Both the position numbers and the translations under genes were made by a program. Below the pieces are notes generated by a model. The model searched no databases. It was not told where the DNA came from and saw only the letters and a list, made by a program, of their open reading frames with translations. Shown here piece after piece: positions 7,280 to 50,489 of a stretch of DNA of 64,000 nucleotides. The stretch's first letter is position 1, and every line of letters begins with the position of its first letter. This stretch comes from Calothrix membranacea FACHB-236 (lineage in GTDB: Bacteria; Cyanobacteriota; Cyanobacteriia; Cyanobacteriales; Nostocaceae), in contig NZ_JACJPX010000004.1 in assembly GCF_014696315.1 (NCBI RefSeq), positions 124,001 through 188,000 on the forward strand, read 5' to 3'.

Positions 7280-7691
7280 TTTTTGTACAAGCACTCTAAA
7301 AGATAAATTATCTCAATTTTTGCACTCGACAGGAGTTTTCCTTCTGCTTCTCAGTCCTGAATACACAAAATATTGATTTTTGAAGTGCAACCTCCCAAAG
7401 GAGTATTTTTTAGCAACTTAACCAATTTTTGTTCAGCAATTAACCCAGTGTAAGTCTCAAGGAGGGCTAAAGAGCGATCGCTTGTATTTGGGTAACCTTG
7501 TTTTCGTGACTTTTTGTAACGCTTTTTTATACAGAACCCCCCGAGCGTGGGCGACTGTGTCACACTGGGAGTGGAGAGTTAATTCGGCGACCGCGTTTGT
7601 TTTTATTATTTACAGGCTTTTTCCTTTTGGTATTCACAAACTTTTCTCCGAAATCTAAATCTCTACACCGTTTTGATTTTGGAGACGACTT
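7280..7691. other. Intergenic region with the leader of the first RRM gene
   Basis: About 410 bp. The 3' part (from about 7575) is the conserved leader described separately. In the rest, a 70-codon minus-strand frame at 7351-7563 has no protein-like features. Nothing else seen. Confidence 0.5.
7575..7691 (+). promoter_or_regulatory. Conserved 5' leader of RRM protein gene, copy 1
   Basis: Three blocks are identical to the leader of the other RRM gene (50411-50484): 23 nt at 7612-7634 beginning ACAGGCTTTT, 24 nt at 7645-7668 beginning TCTCCGAAAT, and 12 nt at 7675-7686 (GATTTTGGAGAC) that carries the ribosome-binding GGAG, 7 nt before the ATG. The upstream TTAATTCGG is shared too. Conservation of non-coding sequence between paralogues points to a regulatory RNA element. 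In Anabaena, rbp leaders are known to take part in cold regulation. Confidence 0.8.
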
Positions 7692-8006
7692 ATGTCAGTT
7701 TATGTAGGCAATCTTTCCTACGAAGTTACAGAAGAAAGCTTGAATGCTGTATTTGCAGAATATGGTTCTGTAAAGCGCGTTCAGCTGCCTACTGATCGTG
7801 AAACAGGTCGTTTACGCGGCTTTGGTTTTGTAGAGATGAGTTCCGAAGCTGAAGAAGCAGCTGCCATTGAAGCACTTGATGGTGCCGAGTGGATGGGACG
7901 TGACCTAAAAGTCAATAAAGCTAAGCCTAAGGAAGATAGAGGTTCCTTTGGTGGTGGTGGTGGTAATCGTGGTGGCTACGGTGGTGGTTCTCGTAATCGC
8001 TACTAA
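7692..8006 (+). CDS. rbp: Gly-rich RRM RNA-binding protein, paralogue 1
   Basis: Cytosolic single-stranded RNA-binding protein of the cyanobacterial Rbp family, implicated in cold acclimation and mRNA binding or localisation. 104 residues: one RRM (about 1-80) with RNP2 VYVGNL near residue 3 and RNP1 RGFGFVEM near residue 41, followed by a short Gly-rich tail ending GGGSRNRY. Length and layout are normal for the Gly-tailed subgroup. It closely resembles the gene at 50490-50810, including leader and terminator stem, so the two arose by a duplication that carried the whole transcription unit. Regulation through the shared leader is likely. Confidence 0.95.
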   Translation: MSVYVGNLSYEVTEESLNAVFAEYGSVKRVQLPTDRETGRLRGFGFVEMSSEAEEAAAIEALDGAEWMGRDLKVNKAKPKEDRGSFGGGGGNRGGYGGGSRNRY

Positions 8007-8072
8007 GCTACTGTGGTGACATAACAAAATAGAGGTTATTTGTTCTTCAATTAGCCTATTAATATATGAACC

Positions 8073-8101
8073 AGGCTCAGGCGAAATGCTTGAGCCTTTT
8101 T
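8073..8101 (+). terminator. Rho-independent terminator of RRM gene 1
   Basis: AGGCTCAGGC pairs with GCTTGAGCCT around a GAAAT loop and is followed by five T. The stem closely matches the terminator of the second RRM gene. Confidence 0.85.
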
Positions 8102-8397
8102 GCTGACAGTAAAAATGCGTACCCCGAATTTCTCACCAGATTAGTAGGTTGATTAAGTGCAGCGCAACCCAACATGCAATACGGTTCGGTTAAGAATTTT
8201 TCGTTATGATTTTGGGTTTGTAGAGACGCGATTGATCGCGTCTCTACAGGATTTAAACGTCAATCGATTTGTCTTATCCAAACTCTATTGACCCAACATG
8301 GATCTTGAAAGCTTAACTTATATTTCGGTGTTGGGTTTCCTTACGTCAACTCAACTAGTTCTTACTCATTGCTAATCAGGAAACAAAGCCCACAAAA
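8102..8397. other. Convergent intergenic region with one palindromic repeat
   Basis: About 300 bp between convergent genes. It contains one copy of the AGACGCGATT palindrome, here extended to 26 bp (8221-8246, TAGAGACGCGAT arm). Otherwise AT-rich, no gene seen. Confidence 0.6.
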
Positions 8398-10083
8398 TCA
8401 AGCCAATATAACTTCAGTGCGGACAACTCCAGCACGTTCATGACGGGCTAAAAGTTGAACTTTGCTACCCACAGCCCCATGCACAATCCATTCAACTTTT
8501 GCGCGGTCTTGGGTTGGGTCACTTTGTCTCCTAGTAGGATATGAAGGTTTATAGGCGCGTCCCTCCAATTGTCCTAAGTCTTTACGGAGTTTTCCTGTTG
8601 CTAAAGTTACGCCCTCAGGTAATTCAATTTCACAAATACAGCCTTTGACTAGCTTTTTCTCTAGGGCTTTTTGGGTAACGTAGGTGGGTAGCCAACCTGT
8701 ATTTTGCACTACTAAATCTAGCCGATATATCTCATTACCTAAATTATGGACATTAGTTTGATAAATCTCCAAGCGAGGAGAGATTAACAGATGCCATACT
8801 AACCAATCAGGAAATTGAGCTATCTCCCGTTCTAAAAACTCTGGGGGTGGATTAACCCAAGCATACATGGTATCCCAACCACCTAATTCTATTTGACCTA
8901 GTTGGGGATGGTCGAAGGCATACCAGTCTACATAACCTTTGCCAGAGAGTTGTTCATCGTTCCAGCGCAACAGCTTTAATTCATCTTCTAAAGGGTGTTG
9001 GCGTTGCCATTCAACGTGTTTATAGTCTTTAATTCCTGCTTGGCTTTGCGGACTCCAAACTTCTACAGTCCAAGCAAATACTCCCTGTTCATCATAGGCC
9101 CAGTCGTCGAAAGTCCCAGAGATAAAATCTTTGGGGTCATAGCGGAAATCATGAAAAGCAGAAATTGCTGGGTATGTTGTAAATTCTGTGCCTTTTTGAC
9201 CAATGTACTGATAAGTGCGGAGGTCATTAACCGGGAATTCCTCATCGCTGTGATAGCTGAAAGGGCGGATGATTAAACCGCCAAAAGTATGGAAAGATAC
9301 AGCCCCAGTGATATTAGGATGGCTAGTAATAAATTCGACAAGCGATCGCACTTCTGTTTCTGATGCTGGATAAGGCCCCGCCCCTGGCTGCTGAAATTCT
9401 TGCCGCCACATCACCGGAAAATTGCGATTTAAGTCTAACCCCTGTTGCGGAGGCTGAATATTAATCTGAACTCCATCGTAATTTTCTATACGTCCCTCCG
9501 GCAAAATTCGGTAATATTGACCGCCTATTTCTGTGGGTTCACGGCGCATTAATAAACGGGGTTCAGTAGGGCAAATTTTCCATGCGCCATTAGCATCAGG
9601 AATACGCATGAGTAAAATTCGATTATCGCCATCGATGTCTTCCATGATTAAGCCATCATTGCTTTCCCTACCTTCAGGATAGGGACGGGTAGCAGAACGA
9701 ATAAATTTTGGTTTGTCAGCCAAAGCCCACTCCGCACCATCAGGGTTAACACGGGGGCAAATATAAAAGGTGTGGCTGTCCAAACAACGAGTAATATCTG
9801 GCTGAGTACCATAAGCTGTAACTAATGTTTGCAGCAGATACAGGCAAACAATTGAGGGAGCTAATTCCGTAGCGTGGATATTGCCATCAACCCACAAAGC
9901 AGGTTTTTCTGCATCTGTTCCAGTAACAAAATTTGTAACAGTCAGCAGCCAAATGTCCCGATTTTCATAACTCTTGCCGATGCTTTCAATGCTTACCAAG
10001 TGAGGAAATTCCTCAGCATAACTATGCAAGATATTGGTCAATTCTTCGTAACGATAATACTTGTTAAACCGCACATCTGGCAT
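8398..10083 (-). CDS. M14-family zinc carboxypeptidase
   Basis: Zinc exopeptidase that removes C-terminal residues from peptides. Family hallmarks: YYRYEELTNIL at the N-terminus; zinc ligands in GNIHATELAPS (H and E, about residue 70); substrate-binding GLDLNRNFP; third zinc ligand in SFHTFGG; and the catalytic Glu in FAWTVEVWSPQ. The C-terminal third (from about residue 400) is an extra domain with strand-rich sequence. The frame is open for another 32 codons, but the ATG at 10081-10083 is preceded by GAGAGGG, and the M14 fold begins directly after it, so I chose that start. No signal peptide, so probably cytosolic. 561 residues. Divergent from the DUF427 gene. Confidence 0.9.
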   Translation of the reverse strand: MPDVRFNKYYRYEELTNILHSYAEEFPHLVSIESIGKSYENRDIWLLTVTNFVTGTDAEKPALWVDGNIHATELAPSIVCLYLLQTLVTAYGTQPDITRCLDSHTFYICPRVNPDGAEWALADKPKFIRSATRPYPEGRESNDGLIMEDIDGDNRILLMRIPDANGAWKICPTEPRLLMRREPTEIGGQYYRILPEGRIENYDGVQINIQPPQQGLDLNRNFPVMWRQEFQQPGAGPYPASETEVRSLVEFITSHPNITGAVSFHTFGGLIIRPFSYHSDEEFPVNDLRTYQYIGQKGTEFTTYPAISAFHDFRYDPKDFISGTFDDWAYDEQGVFAWTVEVWSPQSQAGIKDYKHVEWQRQHPLEDELKLLRWNDEQLSGKGYVDWYAFDHPQLGQIELGGWDTMYAWVNPPPEFLEREIAQFPDWLVWHLLISPRLEIYQTNVHNLGNEIYRLDLVVQNTGWLPTYVTQKALEKKLVKGCICEIELPEGVTLATGKLRKDLGQLEGRAYKPSYPTRRQSDPTQDRAKVEWIVHGAVGSKVQLLARHERAGVVRTEVILA

Positions 10084-10235
10084 AACTGCCCTCTCATGGG
10101 CCAGGTGAACATCCTTTACAATACCATTGACTGGTAATAGGTAATGGGTAAAAACTTTGTCGCAATTACCAATTAGCAATTACCTATTACCAAATTCCAA
10201 CACTATATCTACGTTAGCTAGCAACTTAGGTGATT

Positions 10236-10733
10236 ATGGCTTATCCCCAACGCATAGAACCCTTACCTGGACAAGAATCAGTGTGGGATTATCCCCGTCC
10301 ACCACGTCTTGAGGATACAAGCAAACATATTCAAATTATTTTTAATGGCGTAACAATTGTAGACACCCACTCTGCCAAGCGTGTGTTAGAAACTAGCCAT
10401 CCCCCGGTTTACTATATACCGCCTGGGGATATCAAAATGGAATACCTGTTGCTAACACCACAATCTAGCTTTTGTGAATGGAAAGGAAGTGCAGGTTATT
10501 ACACTTTGCGTGTTGGGGATAAAGAAGTTCAAAATGCTGGTTGGTTCTACTCTAATCCCACACCAGCTTTTGCATCTATCAAAGATTATGTAGCTTTTTA
10601 TGCTCATATCATGGATGCTTGCTATGTCGATGGCGAAAAGGTACAACCGCAACCAGGTAATTTTTATGGTGGTTGGATTACCAGTGATATTGTTGGGCCT
10701 TTTAAAGGTATTCCTGGTAGTTGGGGATGGTAA
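10236..10733 (+). CDS. DUF427 domain protein
   Basis: 165 residues. The DUF427 fold is recognised from SVWDYPRPPRLE, then IFNGVTIVDTHSAKRVLETSHPPVYYIPPGDI, and CEWKGSAGYYTL, ending with FKGIPGSWGW. (The second of these spans about residues 35-70.) The biochemical role of the family is unknown; members are small cytosolic proteins in many bacteria. The ATG at 10236 has AGG 6 nt upstream and is preferred over the GTG at 10230. Divergently transcribed from the M14 carboxypeptidase. Confidence 0.88.
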   Translation: MAYPQRIEPLPGQESVWDYPRPPRLEDTSKHIQIIFNGVTIVDTHSAKRVLETSHPPVYYIPPGDIKMEYLLLTPQSSFCEWKGSAGYYTLRVGDKEVQNAGWFYSNPTPAFASIKDYVAFYAHIMDACYVDGEKVQPQPGNFYGGWITSDIVGPFKGIPGSWGW

Positions 10734-10839
10734 GGGCCTTTCGATTAAGAATATATTCTATTGCTTTATTGGCAGGGGGGACTCGGGGCCCTCTTTGGGG
10801 ATTGAGGGGGATGAAGGAGACAATACCAAAAGACAAATG

Positions 10840-10874
10840 ACAAATACCCAATTACCAATTACCAATTACCAAAA
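10840..10874. repeat. Tandem heptamer repeat (AATTACC type)
   Basis: Several consecutive copies of AATTACC (one variant) sit between convergent genes. The same unit recurs near 10166, 24357 and 58678-58707. This is the short tandemly repeated repetitive (STRR) class known from Nostocales. Confidence 0.8.
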
Positions 10875-13800
10875 TTAAGAGGCGTTTACAGGCAACTTGA
10901 TAATAAATTCTGTGCCTTTTCCGAGAACAGAATCTACGCTGATCGTGCCTTCGTGTCGTTCTACGACGATTTGGCGGGCGATCGCTAATCCTAAACCTGT
11001 ACCTTTACCAACGGGTTTGGTAGTAAATAGATGATCGAAGACTTTGGCTTTGACTTCTGGTGTCATTCCTGTACCGTTGTCCTTGATGCGAATTTCAACA
11101 TGGGGAGTAGAGTTACTATCGCTCTCGGGAATGTATACAGTTTTAATGGTAATTTGGTGGGAATGGGGGCGAAATTTACCTTGAGCGCGTTGCTGATTAA
11201 ATTCTTCTAAACTATCGATGGCATTTGCCAAGATGTTCATAAACACTTGGTTGAGTTGTCCGGGAAAACATTCGACTTCGGGTAAATTGCCGTAATTTGT
11301 AATTACATCAATTGCGGGACGACTTTCGTTAGCTTTGAGGCGATGTTTGAGAATTAAAATTGTACTTTTGAGACCTTCGTGAAGATTAAAGAGAATTTTG
11401 TAATCTTTATCGGCGCGGGAAAAGTTTCGCAGGCTGATACTAATATTGCGGATGCGATCAACACCAAGTTTCATAGAGTCAATGAGCTTGGGTAAGTCTT
11501 CACGAATATATTCCAAATCAATGGCTTCTATTTCATCGGTAATGACTGCACCAGGATTGGGAAATTGTTGCTGATACAAATCGAGTACTCCTAACACATC
11601 GTTAATGTAATCTCGCGCCGGTTGCAAGTTACCGACGATAAATCCTACGGGATTATTAATTTCATGAGCAACACCAGCTATAAGATTCCCCAAGGCAGAC
11701 ATTTTCTCACTTTGCACCATTTGTAGTTGGGTTTGTTGCAAGTCTTGCATGGCTATTTCTAATTCTTGGGCTTTTTGCTGCGCTTGAGCTTCAGCTAGTT
11801 TACGTTCACGAAGTGCAGCTTGCTGTTCGCTAATATTAATCGCTGTGCCAATTAATTGATGAATTCTCCCAGTGCGATCGCGCAGGGGATTAAAGGTTGT
11901 CAGCCACCAAGTTATTTCGTTATCAAAGGTAAGACATTGCTCAATGGTGATGCTAGTTCCTGCGGTGATGCAACTGAGATATTGCTGTCTGACTACAGCG
12001 CTTTCTGCCTCTCCATGAATCTGTTCGGGAGTTTTGCCGAGTACATCGTCTGGTGCTATACCTGTAACCCTAGCTGCCGATGGGTTCCAGCCTGCATAGA
12101 AAAAGTCTTGCTCTGGCGTAACATTGATGACAAAAATAGGATGATCGACACCATCATAGATACTGCGGAGAAATTGTTCTTGGGCGCGGATTTTTTCTTC
12201 AGCTAAATGGCGATCGCTCACATCGATGACAATGCCATCCCACATAATTGAACCATCAGCTTGCTGCTGGGGTTGCGCTGCAGATTGAATCCATTTGACG
12301 ATGCCTGAAGGTGTGATAATCCGCCATTCATGTTGAAATGACGTTAAATTTTGAGCAGAATGAGTAATTAACTCAGCAACCTCTGCTATATCGTCGGGAT
12401 GATTCATTGCATATAGGTTTTCTTTACCTACCATCACATCTTCTGCTGACACCTCATAGATTTCGTAGCAGCCAGAACTGACGTAGGGTGTAGATGTGGA
12501 ACCATCAGCAGCTAAGCAAAACTGGTAAATCATCCCTGGAATGTTATCTGCAAGGTTCTGGAAGCGGGTATCACTTGCCCTTAGTTCGTCTAGGGATTGC
12601 TCTAACTGCTGGCTGTAAAGTTGAGCTTGTTGATAAAGGTGGGCATTTTCTAAGGAAATCGCCGCTTGAGTACAAAGCAAATTTAGGAGTTCCACGCGAT
12701 CGCTAGTAAAGGCGGCTGTGGCTTCTTTATTTTCTAAATATAAAATCCCTAAAAGTTTGCCCTGATACATAATTGGTGTACATAATATGCTTTTGGGCTG
12801 GTAACGGAAAATATAGGGGTCGGCTGTTAATAAAGGATGGGTAATAGCATCGATTAATACCGCAGCTGTCAAGGTTCTTTTGACAGTATTAATTAAGCAC
12901 ACGGGTACTTCTTGACTATTTTCTAGGGGAACTGATTGCAGCACTGCTGATTGTTGTCCTAGTGCAATCGTCGCTTCAATAGTTAGCTTGCCCTGTTTTT
13001 GTAGCAATAAAACACATTTATCTGCACCTGCATTTTCTAATACTACTTGCAATAATGTAGAGAGTAATTTGTCCAGATGAATTTCGCTGGCTAACATCTG
13101 AAAAGATTTCAGGACAGTGGCTAAATCTAAGGCAGCAGATACGCCATTGCTACTATAATTTGTAGTTTGGCTACTGTCATTTGATTTAGATACCATTTCT
13201 GCTAATGGGATAGTGACATCAGATGAAAAACTGATGCTATCTGGTTGCAAAATGGGAATCAGAAACTGCGGATAGTTTTGTTCTAGTTGTTTGACTTTGG
13301 CAGTTGCACCCCAACGCGCATAGCCATAGTAAGCACTTAATAAATATTCTTGAACAATGTTATTTTTACCCCATGCTAAATAGAATTTAGCAGCGAGTTC
13401 ATTGGCTAGGGCTTCTTCGTGAGGGTAATTATTGTCTTTGGCTGTAGAAATTGCCAAATCATATAATTCAATGGCTGCGGCTTTGTTATGTAAAATGCGA
13501 TGGCGTTCTGCTTCCACTAAATAAAATCTATGCAGATGATTACCTGGGGCAGAATTAGCCCACTTCTGCATTTTTTCTTGGTTGCTGCTAACTCGCTGTT
13601 TAATGCGTTTTTGTTCGGCTGAAGAAACTTGCGGATAAATTGCCAGATGTGCCAGCGAATCGTAAGTATAAAAGCTAGGAACGATAAACAATCCGGTAGC
13701 TGCACCCAAGTAATTTTCTGTAGCGATCGCAGCGGTTACTGCTGATTCAAATTCTGCAAATAAATAATAAAGAAAAAGTTTTTGATAATGGAAATAGCAT

Positions 13801-16800
13801 AGGCCTGTTTGATCACCACCCTGTTCGAGAATTGGCAGCATTTGCGCTTCATTAAAAGCATCGCCTTCAAATTGCCAAACTTCCGTACTATCTCCCAATA
13901 AATTTAAAATTGCTTGCTGAAAAATAGCAATTTGATTGACTAGTGCTGCTTGTTGAAGTTGAGTTAACTGGGCACAAAAAGCAGTAGCATCTCGGTTGAT
14001 ATCGTTCAACTCTTGTCCTGCCAACCAAGAATGCATAATGTAAATAATGCCGCAAATACTAGTCCATACTAAATCGCCATTGTCTAAGCCACTTTGATAG
14101 CCTGTCTTCAGCAATGGTAAGGTCTGGATTACAGGTTCTTGCCAATGCAATGTACCAAGACAAACTTCTCCATAAGTTCTTGCTTTTTGTTCTTTGAAAT
14201 TGAATTTTTCGAGTAACTTCAGCGCTAGTTTGCCAAATTGATAGCCCAAGTCAATATCTCCTTGGACTCCACACAATAACTGTCCATAACAACCATAGCT
14301 GTAAGGAGAAAATGGTGTATTACCATAGGTAATTGATAAGTTAACTTGCTCTAAGATAATTAACGGAAATAATTGCGGAACCGCAATATAAACAGAAGCA
14401 GAAACCGCTGCCATAATTTTGATTGCGGCCAATTTTTCTGGTTCTGTCATTTGGGGCAGATTGACTAAGTCTAATGGTTGTCTACCTGCTAAATTGTTTT
14501 TAGTTTGATGCAGTGCTTGTATAATATCTAATTCACTGGGTTGCTCCGGAAATTTGATACTCAAAAGTTGCAGAATTTTCAGAGCAATTTTGACTGCCGC
14601 TAAGGGTTGATTCTGTGCTTGCAGCGCTTGAATTTGAATTTCATAGGCTTTTATCTTATCTAATAAACTGTTAGCGCTTTCTAAAATTACATCTGCAAAA
14701 TTTGTCATTTGCTCTAAATTACTACTCAAATAAGCGGCTTCAGTGGCAGATGCATAAAGCGCTAAAGTTAACTCATACTGCGTTTGCCATTGATTTTCTG
14801 GTAGTAAGTTAATACCTGTAATAAAATATTCTAAAGCTGCTGTATGAGCAGTTGCAGTTTTAGCTTTTTTGCCAGCTTTTAGGTTCAGTTGAGCAATTTG
14901 AGTATGCTGAATGTCTTGCCCAATCCAATTTTTACCAATATTAAATTGATTAACAATCTCAAATAATTTTTCTTCTTGTTCTGCAACAGTAGTTTTATGC
15001 AGTAGTAGTTTGCCAATATTTAGGTGAGTAACTTGTTTTTGTGGTTCGGGAATGAGAGAATAAGCTGCTTGCTGGACGCGATCATGTAAAAACTTGTAAT
15101 GAGCTACTGGATTACCCATCGTAGGTAATGGGCATGATCCATTGTGATGCTCACAATCTTGAAAAAATTTATAAACTTCATTAGTAGGTAAAATTAACCC
15201 GGATTGCAGTGCTTTCCATAAATCTGCGGCTGTCTCTGGCTGGGATTTTTCATAAACAATTGCTAAGGTTGATAAGTCGAAATAATTACCGATACAAGCA
15301 GCCAATTTCAACACAGTTTGAGTAGCTGGAGGTAATTTTTGAATCTGATGTGCCATGAATTCGACAACATCATCAGTTAAAGCTAATTCTTTAATTTCGG
15401 CAATATTACCTTGCCAGCAACCAGTATTAATATCAAAAGTAATTAATTGATCTATATATAATGCCTTGAGAAATTGTGTAGCAAAAAAAGGATTACCTTG
15501 GGTTTTCTGATAAACTAATTCCGCTAAAGGTGCAGCAATTTCATCTGGACAACTAAGAGTATCAGCAATTAAATGATTCAAATCACATAATTGCAAAGGA
15601 GACAGAGTAATGCTATTAACAATTGCTGGAGATTTGTGAATTTCATCTAATGCCAACATTAATGGATGAGCAATTGATACTTCGTTATTACGGTAAGCAC
15701 CAATTAGTAGAAGATAACCTGTTTCTGCTTCACTAACTAACAATCGCATCAACCTCATTGATGCTGAGTCTGCCCATTGCAAATCATCTAAGAAAATTAT
15801 TAGGGGATGGCTGGGAGTGGTAAAAACTCGAATAAATTTTTGAAACAGCAAATTGAAACGAACGTGTGCTGCATCTCCCGATAATTCCACAACCGGAGGT
15901 TGTTTGCCAATAATTCGTTCTAGTTCTGGAATAACCTCAATGATTACCTGTCCGTTATCGCCTAAAGCCGAGAGAATTTTATCTTGCCATTTCTCTAATT
16001 GGCTATCTGTTTCTGTTAGCAATTGTGCCATTAAATCGCGTAATGCTTGCACAAATGCCGAAAACGGAATATTGCGCTGGAACTGGTCAAATTTACCTTT
16101 AATGAAATAACCCCGTTGCCGGACAATCGGTTTATGAACTTCATTGACGATCGCAGTTTTGCCAATACCCGAAAAGCCTGCAACTAACATCAGTTCGCTT
16201 CTCGCATTGGTTGTGCTGGCTACCCTCTCAAATGCATCTAGTAACTGCTGAACTTCAGCTTCCCTACCATATAGTTTTTCCGGGATGAGAAAGCGATCGC
16301 ACACATCTCGGCTACCAATGGCAAAGTCTACAATCTTACCCGTTGTTTGCAGTTGTTCTAGGCAATTTTCTAAGTCAAATTTCAGCCCTAAAGCACTCTG
16401 ATAGCGGTCTTCGGGGTTTTTCGCCATCAGCTTACTCACAATATCGTAAAGTACCTGCGCTCTTTTTTCCCTTTCCCCTTTCCCCTTTCCCCTTTTTCTT
16501 TTCGCCAATACTATAGGCATTTTCGCAATATGAGAGTGAATCAACTCCATTGGGTCATGAGACTGAAACGGAAGTTCACCTGTCAGGAGTTCAAATAAAG
16601 TAATCCCTAAAGAATAGAAATCACTGCGATAGTCAATCCCCCGATTCATCCGTCCAGTTTGTTCGGGAGAAATATAATTGAGGGTTCCTTCTAAAACATT
16701 GGGATTTTTAATTTCCTGAGTTTCTCTTGGTAGCAAAGAGGCAATACTAAAATCAATCAGCTTAACTTCTTTGGAGGAAGGATTGATTAAAATATTGTCA

Positions 16801-36625: not shown

Positions 36626-36682
36626 TTATGCATAAAAGATTTACAATTTCTGGTAAATACAGCAAATCTAGGTGTAATTTCT

Positions 36683-38597: not shown

Positions 38598-38632
38598 TCG
38601 TGTGACTCAATTGCTAAATGTGGAGAAATACC

Positions 38633-38659: not shown

Positions 38660-38686
38660 CATTCAAACACAGTAATGAAAAATTAA

Positions 38687-40734: not shown

Positions 40735-40799
40735 CTTTCTCTCCTGGGGTAATTCCGAAGCTTTGCCTCTCCCCCGATAAATTTTTGTCAATTATCATT

Positions 40800-40862
40800 T
40801 GTCCTTTGTCTTTCGTCATTTGTACTTTGTTCTTGTACTAATGACTAATGACTAATGACCAA
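40800..40862. repeat. Heptamer tract (TAATGAC type) between rplK and rplA
   Basis: At least four near-perfect TAATGAC units (about 40838-40868) and TTTGTCC/TTTGTCT-like ones before them occupy the 131-bp gap. Confidence 0.8.
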
Positions 40863-40865
40863 TGA

Positions 40866-41291: not shown

Positions 41292-41297
41292 TTTTAT

Positions 41298-41930: not shown

Positions 41931-42151
41931 CAGAACACCTGTTTTGCTGCCCACCCAAATAATCCATCAACCAAATATATCAAAGATGCGGAGAGTGTCA
42001 CCATTAACAAAACAGCTGCTGATTCGCTCACCAGTTGTTTGCGACTCGGCCAGACTACTTTCTCAAGTTCTTCTTTAGTTCCTTGAAAAAAGTTATTTAA
42101 GGCTGACCCATTAGTGTTTTCTGGGATTTCCGCTTCGTTTTTTTTGGCCAC
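41930..42151 (-). CDS. secE: Preprotein translocase subunit SecE
   Basis: Small essential subunit of SecYEG in plasma and thylakoid membranes. 73 residues: charged N-terminus, amphipathic segment ELEKVVWPSRKQLVSES, one membrane helix (AAVLLMVTLSASLIYLVDGLF). GTG start with GGGGGT about 11 nt upstream. First protein gene of the ribosomal operon; stop overlaps nusG. Confidence 0.95.
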   Translation of the reverse strand: MAKKNEAEIPENTNGSALNNFFQGTKEELEKVVWPSRKQLVSESAAVLLMVTLSASLIYLVDGLFGWAAKQVF

Positions 42152-42318
42152 AGCCGTTCATACCCCCGTTTTTTGATTCAGGTTTACAGCTTGACTCAAT
42201 CCCAACTTAAATCTGGAAGCAAAAAAGCTGCAAACATAATTATACCCGAAAATATCAATACTAACTGCTAATTATAGCAGCTGTGTTGTTATTTCGGGCT
42301 TTGTTTTGTGCTTTTGAG

Positions 42319-42391
42319 CGCGCCCTGGAGGACTTGAACCCCCGACATCAGGTTTTGGAGACCTGCGTTCTACCAACTGAACTAAGAGCGC
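42319..42391 (-). tRNA. tRNA-Trp (anticodon CCA)
   Basis: A 73-nt cloverleaf. Acceptor GCGCTCT/AGGGCGC with one T-G pair, D-arm TAGTTCAGTTGGTAGA, anticodon stem-loop around CTCCAAA, and T-arm GGGGGTTCAAGTCCTCC. It lies upstream of secE, a usual arrangement; CCA is not encoded. Confidence 0.97.
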
Positions 42392-42490
42392 ACAAGCTGT
42401 CTTCGATTCAGTGATTGCGCTGAACTTGTTTTATTAGTCTAACGCAATTCAGAATCTTATCTTACCTTAAATATTTCTAGAGGGCAAGTG

Positions 42491-42513
42491 AGCGGCAGAT
42501 GCCGCTTTTTATT
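42491..42513. terminator. Hairpin with T tract between rplS and tRNA-Trp
   Basis: AGCGGC-AGAT-GCCGCT followed by TTTTATTT on the plus strand. The orientation of the T tract does not suit rplS, so it may act as a weak rplS terminator or only as a structural repeat. Confidence 0.4.
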
Positions 42514-42543
42514 TAATACATCTCCCATACCTGTAATTGCGAA

Positions 42544-42906
42544 TTACAGAGGGCGATCAAAGCGTTGCTTGATCCGGGTTGCTTTACCAACACGTTGACG
42601 GAGATAGTAGAGCTTAGCACGACGTACTTTACCACGACGCATTACTTTGATGCTTTCAATTCGAGGCGAATGCAGCAGAAATACTCGCTCAACGCCCACA
42701 CCTTGAAATACTCGGCGCACTGTAATTGTTTCGTTAATGCCGCCATTGCGTCTGGCAATTACTACACCTTCATAGGGTTGAACGCGGTATTTATCGCCTT
42801 CTTTAATTTTCACACCGACTTTAACTGTGTCGCCCACATAAATTTCGGGCAGATTGGATTTTAATTGTTCCGCTTCAATGGAACGGATGATCTCTTGAGC
42901 GTTCAT
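42544..42906 (-). CDS. rplS: 50S ribosomal protein L19
   Basis: At the 30S-50S interface. 120 residues: [56 protein letters not shown], and [21 protein letters not shown]. Standard length and start. It stands alone upstream of tRNA-Trp and may share transcription with it. Confidence 0.98.
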
Positions 42907-43357
42907 TGCCTGTCCGGTTTAAAAAACTCACGATCATCAATCATAAATCTATTCCAGCCTGACAGTCCAGTAATTTTCAGTTGATGATTTTTCTGATGCG
43001 TAAGTTCTGTTAGAGAAAAAATGTTACATAACATTGTGAAAAATTTTATGTGAAACGGGAACTATAAAGCTGAAACTTGGTGTTTCCAATTACCTTTGGC
43101 AGTAAATGCACTTGATAGCGGAGTTATAACTAGTGTAATTGGCAACATATTATTAATTTAGGCAATTAATAATCCATTTTCCAAATAGAATTTATTAAAT
43201 TTTGCTCAAGAGTCAAAACAAAAGAGTCATGAGGTTTTGCGTATACCTTCTTTCTCACTTTAACTTTGCCTTCCCGCTCCTTTGTGCCTTTTATCCTCGC
43301 TTTCGCTAATCCAGCCCTAAATCAGGGCTCCACCGTAAACCTTAATTGGTTTCAATT
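42907..43357. other. Divergent intergenic region between rplS and glycosyltransferase
   Basis: About 450 bp. An imperfect dyad CCAGCCCTAAATCAGGGCT lies near 43310-43330. No gene or RNA recognised. Confidence 0.45.
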
Positions 43358-44350
43358 ATGAAATTTAGTGTCGTCATCACTACTTATAATCGCTTAAACT
43401 TACTTAGACGAGCTATTAATTCAGCTCTTGACCAAACGCTTCCCTGTGAAGTTGTAGTGGCTGATGACTGTTCTTCTGATGGAACTGAAGCTTATGTCAA
43501 AAGCTTAGGTAACTCCGTTATTTATCATCGCAATGAGATAAACAAAGGCCATGCGGCTACAGTAAATGTCGGAGTTGCAAAAGCAAGTGGCGACTGGATT
43601 AAGTTTTTGGATGATGACGACTATCTTGCGCCCAATTGTCTAGAAGAAATGGCAAAAGCAATTTCACTTCATCCTAGTGCTGTTATATGTTCTTGTATTG
43701 CTTCTCAAGTAGATAGTAATGAAGTAGAACTCAGCCACACACCAAAAATTGGGCCTGGATTAGCTTTTTATATTCCCCAAGCTGATATTCATTACGGTAT
43801 GCTTTTAGAGCTTGTACCTTTTGGCACACCTGTACAAGTAGCTTGCTGCCGTGCTACCTTCTTGAAAACTGGTGGTTGGAACCCCCAGCTTGATGCCAAT
43901 TGTGATGATATTGATTCTTGGATTCGCATTGCTCAGTTTGGCGATGCTATTTTCTTAAATCAACGCCTAGCTTATCGCACGATCTGGCCTGGCGCTTATA
44001 ATCAAAAATTTTCGCTATTTAGGCGGTTAGATACAAATATTTTGATGAAAGAGAAGATTTACGCCTTAGTTGAGCAAAAACATTATGCTCATCTACCTAG
44101 CCTGGAAAATACGAGAAATTATGTAAAATTACACTGGTTTTTTGTAGCAATTAAGCATGGCAATTTAAAAGAACTTTTCACTATGATAGATGCTGCGATT
44201 TTATCTCCCATTGCTTGGTGGGTTTTAGTAACTGCTGCTTTATCACGCCGTCTTAATTACCGTAATTCCCATCTCAACAAGTTTGTATTGATTAATGTTA
44301 ATCAGAAAGTAAATATGGGAAGCGAGGTTTGGCGAGATGGTAAAGCATGA
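43358..44350 (+). CDS. Family 2 glycosyltransferase
   Basis: GT-A fold enzyme, 330 residues. Start MKFSVVITTYNRLNLLRRAI at 43358 (an in-frame start four codons earlier is unlikely). Sugar-nucleotide site: VVVADDCSSDGTEAY, then the metal-binding FLDDDDYL near residue 90. The later part has NCDDIDSWIRIAQFGD, a typical acceptor-side motif. No membrane anchor, though a hydrophobic segment near residue 290 might associate with the membrane. Donor and acceptor unknown; no polysaccharide cluster around it. Confidence 0.9.
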   Translation: MKFSVVITTYNRLNLLRRAINSALDQTLPCEVVVADDCSSDGTEAYVKSLGNSVIYHRNEINKGHAATVNVGVAKASGDWIKFLDDDDYLAPNCLEEMAKAISLHPSAVICSCIASQVDSNEVELSHTPKIGPGLAFYIPQADIHYGMLLELVPFGTPVQVACCRATFLKTGGWNPQLDANCDDIDSWIRIAQFGDAIFLNQRLAYRTIWPGAYNQKFSLFRRLDTNILMKEKIYALVEQKHYAHLPSLENTRNYVKLHWFFVAIKHGNLKELFTMIDAAILSPIAWWVLVTAALSRRLNYRNSHLNKFVLINVNQKVNMGSEVWRDGKA

Positions 44351-44457
44351 GTGATTATCTAGTCCTGAAGCTTCTATTAAATATTTATTTTTTAGGATAA
44401 TCAAGAATAAAAAGTTAGATTTACTCTTGATTATAAAAAAGCTAGCTTAAGAGTATG

Positions 44458-47400
44458 TCACGAAAAATTTTTCTTCCATAAACGCAGTTGTATAAAGATG
44501 GGTTTTGTCCAACCCCAACTAAAAATATCGTGTAGCAGGGTATAAAAGCAAGGAATAATAAATAGGGTCAAGAGTGTTGCTAAGGACAAACCAGAAAACA
44601 CTACTACGCCTAATGGTTGCAAAAATTCCGAGCCTTCCCCAATTCCTAAAGCCAAGGGAAACATCCCTAAAACTGTGGTAATTGTGGTCATCAATACTGG
44701 ACGCAAGCGTTGCGGAGCAGCTTGTAAAATGGCTGTTTTGCGGTCAACTTTGTCTCGTTCTAGAATTTGATTTGCCAGTTCTACCATGATGATGGCATTG
44801 TTAACGACAATACCCACTAACAGCACAGCACCGACAATAACAGTTGCACCAATAGCTGTTTTGGTAATGTAAAGTCCAAAAATACCCCCAGCTAATGCTA
44901 AAGGAATTGTAAACATAATTACTAACGGGTCAATGAGGGAATTGTATTGCACCGCCATGACCACAAAAACTAAAAAGGTAGCTAATCCTCCTAACAGTTG
45001 TAGTGAGTTTTGCAGTTGTTGATTAGATTCAACGGCTGCACTTGGTAAAATACTGACACCTTCGGGTAAATCAAGACCATTAATAACTGTATTTACCTGT
45101 GCTAAGGCATTACTCAAACTTGCGCCTTCACTCAAATTACCAGCTATTAGGAAAACCTGACGTTGATTAATCCGTTGCACTTCTCCTGGTGCTTGAGCTT
45201 CGATAATGGTGGCGACATCACTCAAACGGACTTGGCGATTGTTCTCAACAAATAAAGGTAACCTTTCTAATTGCGAAGGTGCTTGTACAGAGCTTTCATT
45301 TAACTGCACCCGCACATCTACTAAACGATTACCACGTTGTAGTTGAGTGGGAATACTACCTTCGATCGCAGTTTGAATTGTGTCCCCGATTTCTTGAGTA
45401 GTCAATCCAACTGCTGCAACCCTCTCCCAGTCGGGACGAATCTGAATTTCTGGTTGTCGGTCATCAGCATCAGGACGGAATCTGGCTAGGGTGGCTTGTT
45501 CTTCTAAGGCTGCTAATACTTGACGACCGGCTTGTTGCAGTGTCTGTGCATCATTTCCCTGAAGAATCACATCAACATCAGCACCTCGTACCGGAGAGTT
45601 GTTGACAATTAAACCCCTGACTTGGCCAGGTGCAAGGCGCAGACGAATTCCTGCTAAATTCAGCTTGTTAAACTCTTGGGTAACTCGTTCGGTATAAGCT
45701 TCGACATCTGTACCTGGTTTGAGAGTAATGTTACTGGTACCTCTGAGGGGGTTGGCATTGGTCGTATTACCAAAAAGCGCGCCACCGATTGTAGAAAAGA
45801 CATATTCGGTTTCTGGTTGGTTGCGAAGAATTTCGTTCACCGCATTCATGACTTTTTGGTTTGTTTCTAGGGGAGTACCTGGAGGAAACTGAGCGTTTAA
45901 GTTTGCTTGTCCAGTATTAATCCGGGGGAGAATTTCTTGGGGGATTTGGGGAGCCATCCATAAACTACCACCGCCGAACAGCAGCAGCGCTAGACTGACG
46001 GTAACCAATCGCCAGCGTAATATACCAGACAAAAACCGACCATACCCTCCGGTCGCAGCATCAAAACGGCGATTAAACTGTTGCAGCAGCCAAAATTCGC
46101 TCAATCGGCTAGAAAATCGCCATGCTAGCATTCGCGAAGCCAGCATCGGGACAACGGTGACTGCAATCAAAATTGAGGCAGCGACGGAAAAGCTAATGGT
46201 GAGAATCAACTCATTAAAGAGTAAAGCGATAAAGCCGCCAATGAGCAAAAACGGTAACACCGCCACCAAGTTGGTACTGGTGGAAGCAATGAGAGCGGAT
46301 TCTACTTCTTGACTACTTTGTTCTGCTTGGGAAATTAGTTGCTGAGAACTCAAACGGGTTTTTGTATCTTTACCCGGAGTCATTCCTGCACCCTCGGCAA
46401 TGTTCTCCAACATCACGATGGAGTTATCTACGACAATCCCTACACCCAACGCCAAACCACCCAAGCTAAAAACGTTGAGGGATAAGCCAAACATTCCCAT
46501 CAAGATAATTGCTGCGAGAGTTGCTAGGGGAATAGCAATGACGATAATAAAAGTTTGTCTGAGAGAACCAAGAAATAGTAAAACTGCGATCGCGGCTAAT
46601 GCAGTACCCACCAGTCCCGAACTGGTAACATTAGAGATGGAATTACGGATAAATCTTGATTCATCTAAAGTTGGTGTGAAAATTGTTCCTTCAGGAATGA
46701 CACTAGATTTTCGCAATTCTTCTAAACGTTTTTTCACACCATCTACAACATCAATGGTGTTAGCATCTGGCTGCTTTTGAATACTGACTTTTACGGCTTC
46801 TTCTCCATTGAGGAGGACGTAAACTCGCTGTTGTTCTGAGCCATCAATGACTTCGGCAAAATCTCGCAAATATACGCGGCGCTGAGGAACTGTAGTTTGG
46901 GAACTGCTAGCTGAGTTAGCAGATGAAGTAGAGTTTACCTCAAACGACAAATTTCTAATTTCGTCAGCGCCTTGAAAACGCCCAACAGTGCGGGTTAAAG
47001 GTTCGGAATTTCTCCCCAAAATCCGACCGCCAGAAACATCGACATTACGGTCTCTCAGTTCATCTAAGACATCGGTTAAACCTACACCCAAGGCTTGCAA
47101 GCGATCCAAATCAATATTAATTCTGACCTCTTCTTGCACTCCGCCTGATACATCTACCCCTGCGACTCCTGGGACAACACCCAATTCTCGGGCTAGTTCT
47201 TCTTCGGCAAAAACCCGTAAATCAACACCTGTTAAAGAAGGTGAGGTTAATGCCAACTCATAAACAGGTAACTGGGAAGGATCGACTTTAAATAAACGTG
47301 GTTCTTCAATGGTGTCGGGTAAGGTGCTTCTGGCTCTGTTAAAAGCTGCTGTCGCATCATTTAAAGCTTGGTCAATATTACCTCCTGGTTGAAAAAACAA

Positions 47401-47703
47401 ATCTATACTGATTTGTCCTTCACGTGTTTGCGAAAAAACCTGTACTACGCCCTCCGTGGCGGAAAAGGCTTCTTCTAGAGGTTTGGTGACTTCATCAACT
47501 GCTACTTCTGGGGATACACCGGGCGCTTGTACCCGCACCCCAATCCGGGGATAAGTGATTGATGGTAGTAAATCTACTGGGAGTTTTACAATAAAAAATA
47601 TACCTAGCACTACTACAGCCAGAGTGAGCATAAGTGTGCCAATGTGTTGGCGGATAGAAATAGCACTAATACTGAATCCGCTGCTGTTTTTTACCTGCTG
47701 CAT
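44458..47703 (-). CDS. RND-family efflux transporter permease (AcrB/MexB-like)
   Basis: 1081 residues; inner-membrane proton-driven exporter. Hallmarks: N-terminal helix and RQHIGTLMLTLAVVVLG, LPVDLLPSITYPRIGVRVQAPG, two large periplasmic loops, the family stretch ALGVGIVVDNSIVMLENI near residue 410, and a matching TTVLGMFPLALGIGEG near residue 1010. Complete. Substrate class unclear (hydrophobe/amphiphile or heavy metal); the sequence LGVGIVVDNSIVM favours the hydrophobic-drug type. Starts 51 bp after its adaptor gene; no outer-membrane channel gene is in the window. Confidence 0.95.
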   Translation of the reverse strand: MQQVKNSSGFSISAISIRQHIGTLMLTLAVVVLGIFFIVKLPVDLLPSITYPRIGVRVQAPGVSPEVAVDEVTKPLEEAFSATEGVVQVFSQTREGQISIDLFFQPGGNIDQALNDATAAFNRARSTLPDTIEEPRLFKVDPSQLPVYELALTSPSLTGVDLRVFAEEELARELGVVPGVAGVDVSGGVQEEVRINIDLDRLQALGVGLTDVLDELRDRNVDVSGGRILGRNSEPLTRTVGRFQGADEIRNLSFEVNSTSSANSASSSQTTVPQRRVYLRDFAEVIDGSEQQRVYVLLNGEEAVKVSIQKQPDANTIDVVDGVKKRLEELRKSSVIPEGTIFTPTLDESRFIRNSISNVTSSGLVGTALAAIAVLLFLGSLRQTFIIVIAIPLATLAAIILMGMFGLSLNVFSLGGLALGVGIVVDNSIVMLENIAEGAGMTPGKDTKTRLSSQQLISQAEQSSQEVESALIASTSTNLVAVLPFLLIGGFIALLFNELILTISFSVAASILIAVTVVPMLASRMLAWRFSSRLSEFWLLQQFNRRFDAATGGYGRFLSGILRWRLVTVSLALLLFGGGSLWMAPQIPQEILPRINTGQANLNAQFPPGTPLETNQKVMNAVNEILRNQPETEYVFSTIGGALFGNTTNANPLRGTSNITLKPGTDVEAYTERVTQEFNKLNLAGIRLRLAPGQVRGLIVNNSPVRGADVDVILQGNDAQTLQQAGRQVLAALEEQATLARFRPDADDRQPEIQIRPDWERVAAVGLTTQEIGDTIQTAIEGSIPTQLQRGNRLVDVRVQLNESSVQAPSQLERLPLFVENNRQVRLSDVATIIEAQAPGEVQRINQRQVFLIAGNLSEGASLSNALAQVNTVINGLDLPEGVSILPSAAVESNQQLQNSLQLLGGLATFLVFVVMAVQYNSLIDPLVIMFTIPLALAGGIFGLYITKTAIGATVIVGAVLLVGIVVNNAIIMVELANQILERDKVDRKTAILQAAPQRLRPVLMTTITTVLGMFPLALGIGEGSEFLQPLGVVVFSGLSLATLLTLFIIPCFYTLLHDIFSWGWTKPIFIQLRLWKKNFS

Positions 47704-47753
47704 CTTTCTAATTTATTTTTCAAAAATTACTGTTGATTCCCCCTAGGGGTGGA

Positions 47754-49157
47754 CTAAGATTTTTCTGAAATAATTGAAAGACGCACAGCGTCTCCATCTT
47801 TTAGCGGCTTACCACTACGCACTACATAGCGATCGCCTGGCTGTAACCCAGATAAAATTTCGACTTTGCCATCACCTCTTTTCCCTAGAGTGACGGAACG
47901 GGCTGTTACCTTGGCCTTACCTTCAACATTGGTTACTACAAACAAAGTTCCAGTTTGGTTATCTGACTCTTGTTTACTTGTTTTAGGCTGGGAAGAGGCT
48001 CGATTTGTTGCTTCTTTCTGAATAGCTGTTTGCGGTACTACTACTCGCTGTGCTGCTTGGGTGGCGAAATTGACACGTGCTAACAGTCCGCTACCAATTT
48101 TGCCATCTCTGTTAGAAATCACTACTTCTATTGGGATTAAACGAGCGGTAGCATCGGCGGTTGGGGAAATGCGTGTCACTTTTCCCGTTAATGTTTGGTT
48201 AGGAAAGGCATCTAAACGGACTTGTACAGATTGACCAACACGAATTTGTGCTAGTTCTAATTCGGAAACTTGGACTACGACTTTTATTTGGTTAAAATCA
48301 GCAATTTTTAAAACTTCACCGCCTGCTTGCAGCAAATTACCCGGTTCTGTGACCTTTTCGGTAACGACACCAGTAATAGGAGATGTCAACCGGGTGTAGG
48401 ATCTGCGTTCTTTAGCTTGGGCGACTACTGCTTGTTGGGCAATTACTCTACCTTGGGCGGCGGCGACGGCTTGCTGTTCTGTACGCACTTGCTCGGTAGC
48501 GGCTCGAAGGGCTTGCGCTGCTGTTTGGGCTTCCGTGCGGGCTTGTTGGGCAGTTTGCTCGGCGATCGCACCTTGTTTGACTAGTTGCTGCTGACGTTGT
48601 GAATCGGCTTGAGCTTGGACTACTTCTAGGCGCGCCCTTTCAACTTGGGCACGGGCATTACTTACTTGAGTTGTTGCCCTTGCTACTTCTGATTTGAGGG
48701 ATGCTAATTCTGCTTCTGCTTGTTTTAAGTCTGTGAGTAAGAGGACATCATCTAACTGGCCAATGTTTTGACCTTGCTTAACTCTATCTCCCACATCCAA
48801 ATTTAAACCCAACAGTCTTCCTTCGACTTGCGATCGCAGTGATACTGTCCGGAAGGGTGTGGTAGTACCTGTATACTCTGGTGCTGTCTGCAAGTTCTCT
48901 GTGCGGGCGATCGCCACATCTACAGGTGTTGCACCGCCTCCTTGTCTTGCACTATTGGGGCCTTGAGATTGGGCATCGGCTGATTCTTTGGGAGATGAAC
49001 CACAACCTGTTGTCAGCAAGCTCAAGCCTAGGAAGCAAGCAATAACTAAACTAGACTGCGATCCACAGAAATAGGGAAACTTCCGCCTATGTTCTTGATT
49101 ACTTGTGTGATGTAACTGAGAGTTGATTAACTGAGATGCTGCTATAGTATTTGGCAT
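47754..49157 (-). CDS. RND efflux membrane-fusion (adaptor) lipoprotein
   Basis: 467 residues. An N-terminal signal with lipobox SLLTTGC (about residue 50) predicts a lipid-anchored periplasmic protein. It then has the lipoyl-type half-motif GRLLGLNLDVGDRVKQGQNI, a long Gln/Ala-rich coiled-coil hairpin (about 135-230), the second half-motif SPITGVVTEKVTEPGNLLQA, and beta-barrel and membrane-proximal domains with VNFATQAAQRVVVPQTAI. Stop lies 51 bp before the permease, so operon with it. Confidence 0.93.
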   Translation of the reverse strand: MPNTIAASQLINSQLHHTSNQEHRRKFPYFCGSQSSLVIACFLGLSLLTTGCGSSPKESADAQSQGPNSARQGGGATPVDVAIARTENLQTAPEYTGTTTPFRTVSLRSQVEGRLLGLNLDVGDRVKQGQNIGQLDDVLLLTDLKQAEAELASLKSEVARATTQVSNARAQVERARLEVVQAQADSQRQQQLVKQGAIAEQTAQQARTEAQTAAQALRAATEQVRTEQQAVAAAQGRVIAQQAVVAQAKERRSYTRLTSPITGVVTEKVTEPGNLLQAGGEVLKIADFNQIKVVVQVSELELAQIRVGQSVQVRLDAFPNQTLTGKVTRISPTADATARLIPIEVVISNRDGKIGSGLLARVNFATQAAQRVVVPQTAIQKEATNRASSQPKTSKQESDNQTGTLFVVTNVEGKAKVTARSVTLGKRGDGKVEILSGLQPGDRYVVRSGKPLKDGDAVRLSIISEKS

Positions 49158-49621
49158 TTTTTAGAATTTGTGCGGGTGATTTCCGTCCAAAATCATTAGT
49201 TTCCCCCGACATCAGGCGGCTTTGAATGACAGCCGTCTAATATCGAGTAGTTTGAAATTATTCTTCAAAGAAATAAAGCAGAAAAAGTCCCTATGCTGTG
49301 CTGCTGATGCAGGGCCAGAGAATTTGATAGTACTGAATCCAATTGTAAATTTAGTATACGTATTTTTAGTATTTCTAAGATCTGTCGCAAGATATATGAC
49401 CGATCTAGATTACAAAAATACTTTTTTATTTTTTTGCTTCTATCTCCAGAAAGAAACAATTTGAAATTTCGATGTTTAGCATTGTAGCCAAACTATCAGT
49501 AATGCTTTTAATATCTAGTTTAGATTAAAAATAGTAAAGAAATTTGGTATTTGGTACAAACGTCATGTATCGAGTGTCAACACCCAAAAATCTCTATCAT
49601 TGTGCTTGAGGAAGGCAACTA
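49158..49621. other. Intergenic region, nothing specific seen
   Basis: About 460 bp, AT-rich. Frames of about 60-80 codons on both strands (49222-49464, 49265-49459) lack ribosome-binding sites and protein-like composition. Confidence 0.45.
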
Positions 49622-50179
49622 GTGACATTACCACTAAAAATTGCAAAAACCGTTGAAAAATCCCAGATTGTGGAATTTTTTCAGGAATCTGTGGGCAATT
49701 GGCAATCACAAAGGCGTTATTACACTCTTTCATCAGGAACTACCAAAGAAATTGCCAGTGCGATCGCAATTAGGTATTTAGAACAGGGATGCGAAGAATT
49801 GCAACAGCTAGCTAAGTTGCACGAATTACCAGATTTAGAAAGTTTAGTGTGTGGTACTGAAGTGAGCTGGGAAAGTACAGATTCAGTTACAGGCAAAAAA
49901 GAATCTCAAGGTTCAACTTTATTTGGTGCTTTAGGAAACATTTTGTATCGCGATCGCGGTTTTGCTACATCAAAACCTATCACCGCAGAATACTATTTTC
50001 CCAATCCCAAAACACTTTGTTTGCGAACAGAGTACAATAACTCAGTTTTTGAAGAAGAGTTAAAGCTAATTGGGAGTAAATACCGTACTCGCCAGACAAT
50101 CATCTCTCGTGCTGGTGAACAGTTGATGATTGGTCAGTATTTAGAAACTAGAGTAGAGAGTTTAAGTGTGATTCCATAG
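49622..50179 (+). CDS. CpcS/CpeS-family phycobiliprotein lyase
   Basis: Attaches phycocyanobilin-type chromophores to phycobiliprotein cysteines. 185 residues. Recognised by IVEFFQESVGNWQSQRRYYT at the N-terminus, a lipocalin-like strand pattern, and the C-terminal RAGEQLMIGQYLETRVES, typical of this family (CpcS/CpcU subgroup in particular). The GTG start at 49622 is preceded by GAGGAAGG at ideal distance. No phycobiliprotein genes adjacent, as is common for this lyase. The exact chromophore site cannot be assigned. Confidence 0.85.
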   Translation: MTLPLKIAKTVEKSQIVEFFQESVGNWQSQRRYYTLSSGTTKEIASAIAIRYLEQGCEELQQLAKLHELPDLESLVCGTEVSWESTDSVTGKKESQGSTLFGALGNILYRDRGFATSKPITAEYYFPNPKTLCLRTEYNNSVFEEELKLIGSKYRTRQTIISRAGEQLMIGQYLETRVESLSVIP

Positions 50180-50489
50180 GGGTAGTACAGAGGGCAAAGG
50201 GGACACAAAATTCCAAATTCCAAATGAAAAAGAGACTTTTAGCCCTAAGCCCTTAAATCTTGACGACCCTACACGACTTTCATAATTTAACTTTAATTTG
50301 TAACGGGTTACTTAAAAGTTTTTTTTAACCGTTCCTCTTAAACAGAGAGTTGCTATATCATTAATTAAAGATGAGAATTAATTCGGTGATAGTGGTTTTT
50401 GTTAGTATTGACAGGCTTTTTCCTTTTGGTATTTGCAGACTCTCTCCGAAATCTAAATCTCTACACGTTTATGATTTTGGAGACATTTT
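50180..50489. other. Intergenic region with RRM leader
   Basis: About 310 bp. From about 50370 it is the conserved leader; before that AT-rich sequence. No other gene seen. Confidence 0.5.
50370..50489 (+). promoter_or_regulatory. Conserved 5' leader of RRM protein gene, copy 2
   Basis: Blocks at 50411-50433, 50443-50466 and 50473-50484 are identical to the three blocks of the copy at 7612-7686, with nearly the same spacing (9 against 10 nt between the first two). GGAG at 50479-50482 is the ribosome-binding site. Confidence 0.8.

Follow-up and report, generated by a model that had tools for sequence, protein, structure and literature searches.

A candidate translational control element in the leaders of cyanobacterial rbp genes

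Several papers document the cold regulation of cyanobacterial rbp genes (PMC9333190, PMC3264485, PMC6789579, PMC10989929, PMC3610870, PMC6091082), which encode RRM proteins, and describe responses of these proteins to cold and UV (PMC9333190, PMC10989929). Conserved "boxes for cold response" in the 5' untranslated region (5'-UTR) of rbp genes are also already known, according to PMC9333190, which cites Maruyama, Sato and Ohta 1999 and Hamano 2004. Here we analyze the leaders of two rbp genes in a window of 64,000 nt from Calothrix membranacea FACHB-236 (the whole stretch examined; contig NZ_JACJPX010000004.1, positions 124,001 to 188,000). These leaders share an element, predicted to fold into a hairpin that buries the Shine-Dalgarno (SD) sequence, which is likely to act in cis as an RNA control element on cluster I rbp genes, working as a translational off-switch.

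Like the cold boxes, this element consists of conserved segments in the same leader region of the same genes, 5' of the coding regions of cluster I rbp genes. The available passages of PMC9333190 name the boxes, whereas an SD hairpin, the fit of its arms, a distribution limited to RRM genes and a counterpart in the sister-class family f37 are absent from those passages. No description of an SD hairpin on rbp genes was found in titles and abstract openings, a coverage that leaves out most subscription papers. Added here are the anatomy of the known boxes as a predicted SD-burying hairpin, the fit of its arms, its RRM-linked distribution and its f37 counterpart.

The window also contains a ribosomal protein L10 leader (RF00557; 39780-39948, reverse strand, 64 bits), likewise a 5' RNA element preceding genes for RNA-binding proteins, with feedback that is known there and proposed here. 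The rbp leader differs from it in its simpler hairpin, its putative ligand and the absence of an Rfam match: Rfam 15 gave no match at the gathering score for rbp leaders, in two scans of which one covered the first leader only. The cspA-type cold-shock leaders of Escherichia coli are long, have competing pairings and precede a gene for a nucleic-acid-binding protein induced by cold. The likeness of the rbp leader to these is one of description, and no consistent cold opening of its hairpin was observed in the folding predictions. Translational control by an RRM protein in a bacterium is described, in PMC10942595, for an engineered Musashi-1 repressor in E. coli; that system is synthetic, whereas the RRM link of the rbp leader comes from location alone.

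The two leaders and their predicted hairpin

The features assigned to the two genes, which start with ATG at 7692 and 50490, are given below in window positions, with the two arms of the hairpin designated as the anti-SD and SD strands.

7572-7691, + strand: rbp gene 1 leader, its 5' end placed by alignment
7579-7587, + strand: 5' box TTAATTCGG, predicted possible partner of the anti-SD strand; shared block
7612-7634, + strand: U-rich block, 23 nt; exact letters mostly in close relatives
7645-7655, + strand: anti-SD strand TCTCCGAAATC of the hairpin, from folding, alignment and covariance model
7656-7674, + strand: hairpin loop with conserved core TCTCTAC at 7660-7666, from alignment
7675-7685, + strand: SD strand GATTTTGGAGA with Shine-Dalgarno GGAG at 7681-7684, from folding and covariance model
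7692-8006, + strand: rbp gene 1, RRM and glycine-rich tail, 104 aa; Pfam RRM_1, 79.2 bits
8073-8101, + strand: terminator of rbp gene 1, from scan
50370-50489, + strand: rbp gene 2 leader, with an inferred 5' end
50378-50386, + strand: 5' box TTAATTCGG of the gene 2 leader; shared block
50411-50433, + strand: U-rich block of the gene 2 leader, 23 nt; shared block
50443-50453, + strand: anti-SD strand of the gene 2 hairpin, from folding and alignment
50454-50472, + strand: hairpin loop of gene 2 with TCTCTAC core, from alignment
50473-50483, + strand: SD strand of gene 2 with Shine-Dalgarno GGAG at 50479-50482, from folding
50490-50810, + strand: rbp gene 2, RRM and glycine-rich tail, 106 aa; Pfam RRM_1, 73.8 bits
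50884-50915, + strand: terminator-like stem of rbp gene 2 (AAAAGCTCAAGC / GCTTGAGCTTTT), by eye; 3' arm shared with gene 1

Three exact blocks are common to both leaders, with lengths of 23 nt (7612-7634 and 50411-50433), 24 nt (7645-7668 and 50443-50466) and 13 nt (7674-7686 and 50472-50484), and a fourth block of 9 nt, TTAATTCGG, is located further 5' (7579-7587 and 50378-50386). A first-pass annotation of the sequence had reported the first three blocks, correctly as to their order and lack of mismatches, but with a length of 12 nt for the third. The spacing of the blocks is equal to within 1-2 nt. In 3000 random pairs of 122-nt segments from the window, the longest exact match had a median of 7 nt and a maximum of 13. 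Over the final 122 columns of the leader alignment 99 are identical, against 73 of 196 farther upstream, and Nostocaceae-type leaders are conserved from GAGAGTTAATTCGG through to the ATG. The drift at silent sites that had been noted for the coding regions is confirmed: 35 of the 104 third positions differ, as do 20 of the 52 fourfold sites, the latter share exceeding the 23 of 122 differing leader columns (Fisher p = 0.008). The terminator stems (8073-8097 and ~50884-50913), in turn, match as had been claimed in their 3' arm ATGCTTGAGC and differ in their 5' arms; the gene 2 stem was read by eye, the terminator scan having given no entry for it. A sigma-70 scan returned no match for the rbp gene 1 leader.

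The 24-nt block begins with UCUCCGAAAUC, in the anti-SD strand, and the 13-nt block contains GAUUUUGGAGA, in the SD strand. These sequences are predicted to pair over 11 positions, including one G-U, in a 41-nt hairpin that buries the GGAG ending 7 nt 5' of the ATG. Two paralogs present a G-C in place of the G-U pair (UUUCGGAG in L006 and UUCGGAG in L003). In the loop, UCUC is invariant among seven leaders of this genome and conserved at 90% or more in 32 leaders, with the UAC that follows it being less strict. The earlier suggestion that the blocks could be the actual element is borne out in part: the 24- and 13-nt blocks form the two halves of a single predicted SD-burying hairpin, and the exact letters of the 23-nt U-rich block are kept mainly in close relatives. 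A looser U-rich block occurs in few other families (L190, L215, L231), and short-class leaders have none.

Folding was extended to 89 leaders, comprising nine of this genome and 80 named cyanobacterial rbp loci, which are the best 80 of at least 577 relatives. At least 75% of the SD-like core was paired, with any partner, in the minimum-energy fold of 78 of these leaders (mean z -1.5). In four of seven leaders of this genome the SD is predicted to be less than 5% unpaired from 10 to 65 C. For gene 1, the predicted unpaired fraction climbs from 2% at 10 C to 21% at 38 C when 4 nt more of 5' sequence are included and lies at 0.1-1.7% over 10-65 C in a run with a shorter 5' end, so that absolute accessibilities are soft.

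Two separate observations were made on the 5' half of the leader. The segment at 7597-7640 and its relatives (TATTGACAGGCTT / TATTTACAGACTT) resembles a tandem duplication in Nostocaceae-type leaders, with a second copy directly 5' of the anti-SD strand in some other families. The 23-letter CTCCGAAATCTAAATCTCTACAC had no exact match in viral contigs.

Distribution among RRM genes and a second spelling in family f37

The genome containing the window (G000, 8.8 Mb) harbors nine RRM genes, seven of which are preceded by recognizable versions of the leader. Their scores against R1, a covariance model built from 32 hand-picked canonical leaders (30 named loci and the two in the window), are 73.6, 72.6, 65.1, 53.7, 49.2, 39.2 and 19.7 bits; by its score the last of these (L001) falls within the noise range, and it was retained because it directly precedes an rbp gene. 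The two genes without the leader are L007, of the short "MT" type, and L008, of cluster II with a PDPRWA tail. Two of the rbp genes (L006 and L009) lie about 1 kb apart on one strand (G000:C133:32875-34081), and the second of this pair is divergent and devoid of a glycine-rich tail, yet keeps the element (39.2 bits).

A survey of 34 genomes chosen for family diversity provided 139 RRM matches, of which 138 were taken, the exception being a 93-nt match with two stops (G048:C4). Together with four loci of two f37 genomes these made up 142 loci, and 139 could be parsed (L209, L288 and L289 were left out): 67 MS, 28 MT/other, 29 cluster II, 11 picocyanobacterial (f25) and 4 f37. R1 matched 41 of the 96 loci in a first batch (67 MS, 28 MT/other and one f25), namely 40 MS and one other, always directly upstream and on the same strand as the gene. 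None of the remaining 43 cluster II, picocyanobacterial and f37 loci was matched, including the 29 cluster II loci outside f25. The matches cover 21 of the 25 families having MS-type genes, and 32 of them score at least 25.7 bits, with the other nine at 18.4-23.6. The same blocks are present ahead of rbp genes in other genera and families.

A genome-wide R1 search of the 34 genomes, in which the best 150 first-look candidates per genome were scored, gave 58 matches at E<=0.1, and 41 of these are directly 5' of an RRM gene on the same strand. All 32 matches of at least 25.7 bits adjoin an RRM gene, and the other 17 score at most 23.8 bits; in these genomes, strong matches thus occur only before the gene family of the proposed ligand. 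Similarly, the 29 best loci newly found by R1 (L109-L137) all precede RRM genes. A wider regulon beyond RRM genes was rejected, since nothing above 23.8 bits appeared elsewhere in the 34 genomes. Also discarded were the R1 matches in AT-rich genomes of the same phylum, which are noise (best 27.1 bits, above the 25.7 bits of the weakest of the 32 strong matches), 10 of 12 of these genomes lacking an RRM gene; the count of 117 of 291 genomes at E<=0.05 hence overstates the spread. The single non-rbp match among the top eight of this genome (L100, 23.1 bits) has no gene suitably placed. Near copies of a palindromic repeat, GAGACGCGATTNATCGCGTCTC, are present in L100; the repeat occurs in the window at 3693-3714, 3728-3749 and 8223-8244 with at most two mismatches, where chance would predict none, and is probably a dispersed repeat of this genome.

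In MT-type genes, such as L007 (G000:C125), L064, L072, L073 and L088, the hairpin is usually absent, and in many cases there is no SD at all. Several genes of this type share a different leader, with CTGAAC-like and GATCGA-like words before the ATG; among the 28 MT/other leaders of the 34-genome set, 13 have the former word, 9 the latter and 14 an SD-like word.

Family f37 belongs to the same phylum and lies outside the class of the window. Photo_RC genes were absent from all eight f37 genomes searched, indicating that this family is probably not photosynthetic. RRM genes were identified in 10 of 11 f37 genomes (23 matches), and in many of their leaders UCCUCUUU ... AAAGAGGA lies over the SD, the loop resembling GUUNUCAAGUACCU. 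Directly upstream of 15 of the 23 genes there is an exact match to CTCTTT-N22-36-AAAGAGGA, and this pattern has 11 further strand hits against 12 for a reversed control pattern. Among the 18 leaders that were parsed (L294, L304, L305, L307 and L316 were left out), 13 are predicted to have an SD less than 5% unpaired at 30 C. R1 was run on four f37 leaders and matched none of them, so the f37 hairpin constitutes a second spelling. It could stem from common descent with rewriting or from convergence; the likeness between the cyanobacterial UCUCUAC loop and UCAAGUAC in f37 is suggestive only, and the f37 leader alignments are out of register on the 3' strand.

The SD hairpin was not clearly shared by other sister-class families, with p<0.05 in the shuffle test for 4/31 leaders of f39, 1/3 of f42, 0/4 of f40, 0/2 of f44 and 0/1 of f45; these loci were taken from a longer list by best score or by hand, their start codons are uncertain, and L341 and L344 of the 43 sister-class loci were left out. 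Other strong hairpins are frequent near the start codon in L317-L339 and L350-L359, mostly from f39 (e.g. L333, L338), without clearly covering the SD.

Selection on the pairing and competing explanations

The mutual fit of the two arms was assessed by exchanging leader halves between families. In 114 cluster I leaders the own duplex has -12.65 kcal/mol against -10.35 after the exchange, a cost of 2.3 kcal/mol, and in 34 cluster II control leaders the corresponding values are -9.39 and about -9.3, a cost below 0.1. Shuffle tests reached p<0.05 for 30/67 MS-type, 46/80 named, 5/7 own and 11/18 f37 leaders, against 0/33 cluster II, 2/28 MT/other and 1/7 picocyanobacterial leaders. Contiguous outer pairs beyond the SD core in 113 leaders amount to 1.48, compared with 1.05 (standard deviation 0.065) in 2000 shuffles, the best of which reached 1.33. 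Alignment A6, which was fitted to the model, has 91.4% of its cells paired, and sliding it by 1-3 columns lowers this share to 25-67%; its covariation score of 0.092 (0.071 in shuffles) was reached by none of 500 shuffles. The first-pass annotation had argued for selection on the leader RNA, and the recurrence of the element across families and the better fit of its own arms over swapped ones bear this out. At the level of sequence, the analysis shows a conserved hairpin potential, arms that fit each other and, in the genomes searched, strong matches only before RRM genes.

Several results weigh against this interpretation. Only two of five outer positions beat every shuffle individually, and the shuffles ignore relatedness. 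Pairs changed on both sides, of which there are two, were not above shuffles in two tests (194/500 and 269/500), nor were further pair types (76/500 and 233/500). RNAalifold reported no compensated pair, owing to the fixed CUCC/GGAG core, which is almost invariant. Within the survey, 27 of the 67 MS-type genes have no R1 match, some folding another SD hairpin and others none, and nine of the 41 matches, at 23.6 bits or less, are within the genome-wide noise range. Two leaders of this genome (L001 and L009) have a weak predicted hairpin, and predicted SD exposure shifts little with temperature, thus leaving cold induction unexplained. A predicted stable stem with mutually fitted arms covers the SD, compensated changes in the core aside, and the hairpin is well supported at the level of sequence, though short of proof by core covariation.

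The hairpin very likely forms in the cell, and it is fairly likely that it would lower translation or tie translation to mRNA stability; SD burial would probably be an off-switch for making Rbp proteins. Pairing of the anti-SD strand with the SD strand across the UCUCUAC loop would bury the ribosome-binding site and set a low default translation, and expression would increase when the hairpin was opened by a factor or by the 5' UCGG box competing for the anti-SD strand. Rbp itself is the likeliest candidate for a factor acting in trans: in a feedback loop, Rbp bound to the loop or to U-rich single strands could keep the hairpin shut, or else melt it. That Rbp regulates its own leader is a possibility with the balance somewhat against it, suggested by gene location alone; the RIP-seq section of PMC9333190 names other enriched mRNAs and leaves rbp mRNAs unmentioned.

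The 5' box, TCGG followed by T or C, occurs upstream in 50 of the 67 MS-type leaders but in only 4 of the 33 from cluster II. Its distances to the anti-SD strand concentrate at 62 nt, and lesser groups fall at 29-30 and 35-40. With the SD strand removed, predictions for 47 leaders (42 of the 67 MS-type and five own) have the anti-SD strand held by the box in 45, at a mean of 0.95 against 0.43 for permuted boxes. In competing-fold runs of full-length leaders from 10 to 38 C (41 of the 67 MS-type), the pairing of the anti-SD and SD strands exceeded 0.5 in 28 to 32 leaders, and that of the box in 8 to 12. Over this range, predicted box pairing increases from 0.15 to 0.80 for gene 1 and stays at or below 0.05 for gene 2. 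Box and anti-SD strand showed no covariation and no gain over permuted combinations in the 42 MS-type leaders having all anchors (own -6.88, permuted -6.96), with letters nearly fixed. A role for the box as alternative partner of the anti-SD strand is put forward as a tentative, rather doubtful, reading of the models. Its extension, an ancient two-fold feedback leader on RRM genes throughout the phylum, photosynthetic or not, seems unlikely. Under it, the emerging box would pair with the anti-SD strand and leave the SD free; the anti-SD strand would later shift onto the SD and shut the gene, with Rbp on the UCUCUAC-type loop (UCAAGUACCU in f37) setting the balance. This extension is motivated by the ability of the box to hold the anti-SD strand without the SD strand, by the set spacing and by the same hairpin in other letters in f37, and it is weakened by the missing box covariation and by a box survey that covered cyanobacterial leaders.

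Among alternative explanations, the leader could mainly set mRNA stability, with hairpin and U-rich block governing cleavage by RNase E or another nuclease, slower in the cold, and SD occlusion as a side effect. A title, Ehira 2005, cited in PMC6091082, names a role of the 5'-UTR in low-temperature rbpA1 transcript accumulation, the Synechocystis RNase E mRNA is cleaved at a U-rich 5'-UTR site according to PMC10989929, and the U-rich block adjoins the hairpin; this block is, however, poorly conserved beyond close relatives, and SD pairing is kept more widely. We consider this explanation rather unlikely, and it is compatible with a translational off-switch, since an SD hairpin can act through decay.

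It is improbable that the leader is mainly a DNA element, such as a start region sensitive to supercoiling, or an operator, to which a repressor binds in the warm, with the hairpin as a by-product of operator letters. Proteins that bind the rbpA1 5'-UTR region in warm-grown cells were reportedly seen by Sato and Nakamura in 1998. Gyrase inhibition blocks the cold-induced transcription of rbpA1, as stated in PMC3264485, which points to DNA-level control and away from a translational switch, and the letters of the loop and of the 5' box are kept although pairing evidence for them is absent. An operator would nonetheless predict neither the fit of the arms beyond the SD core, nor a stem covering the SD right before the start codon, nor the differently spelled SD hairpin in f37.

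A simple RNA thermometer, to which the AU-rich, zipper-like stem over the SD might point, is very improbable: predicted SD exposure does not change strongly across the physiological range, the SD of four of the seven own leaders staying less than 5% unpaired from 10 to 65 C, and such a device would turn on by heat, opposite to the reported cold induction. Recent gene conversion or duplication in the absence of RNA selection, conceivable for paralogs on one contig with 99 of 122 identical leader columns, is hardly credible given the same blocks in other genera and families and the 20 of 52 differing fourfold sites.

RRM proteins have multiplied in cyanobacteria, as illustrated by the nine genes of this genome, and a conserved SD-burying leader on rbp genes provides a concrete target for mutation in the form of a 41-nt hairpin whose loop is fixed. 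Should Rbp bind this leader, the binding site of Rbp and its RNA targets would become predictable. The differently spelled hairpin of f37, moreover, suggests that this control is either very old or was invented more than once.

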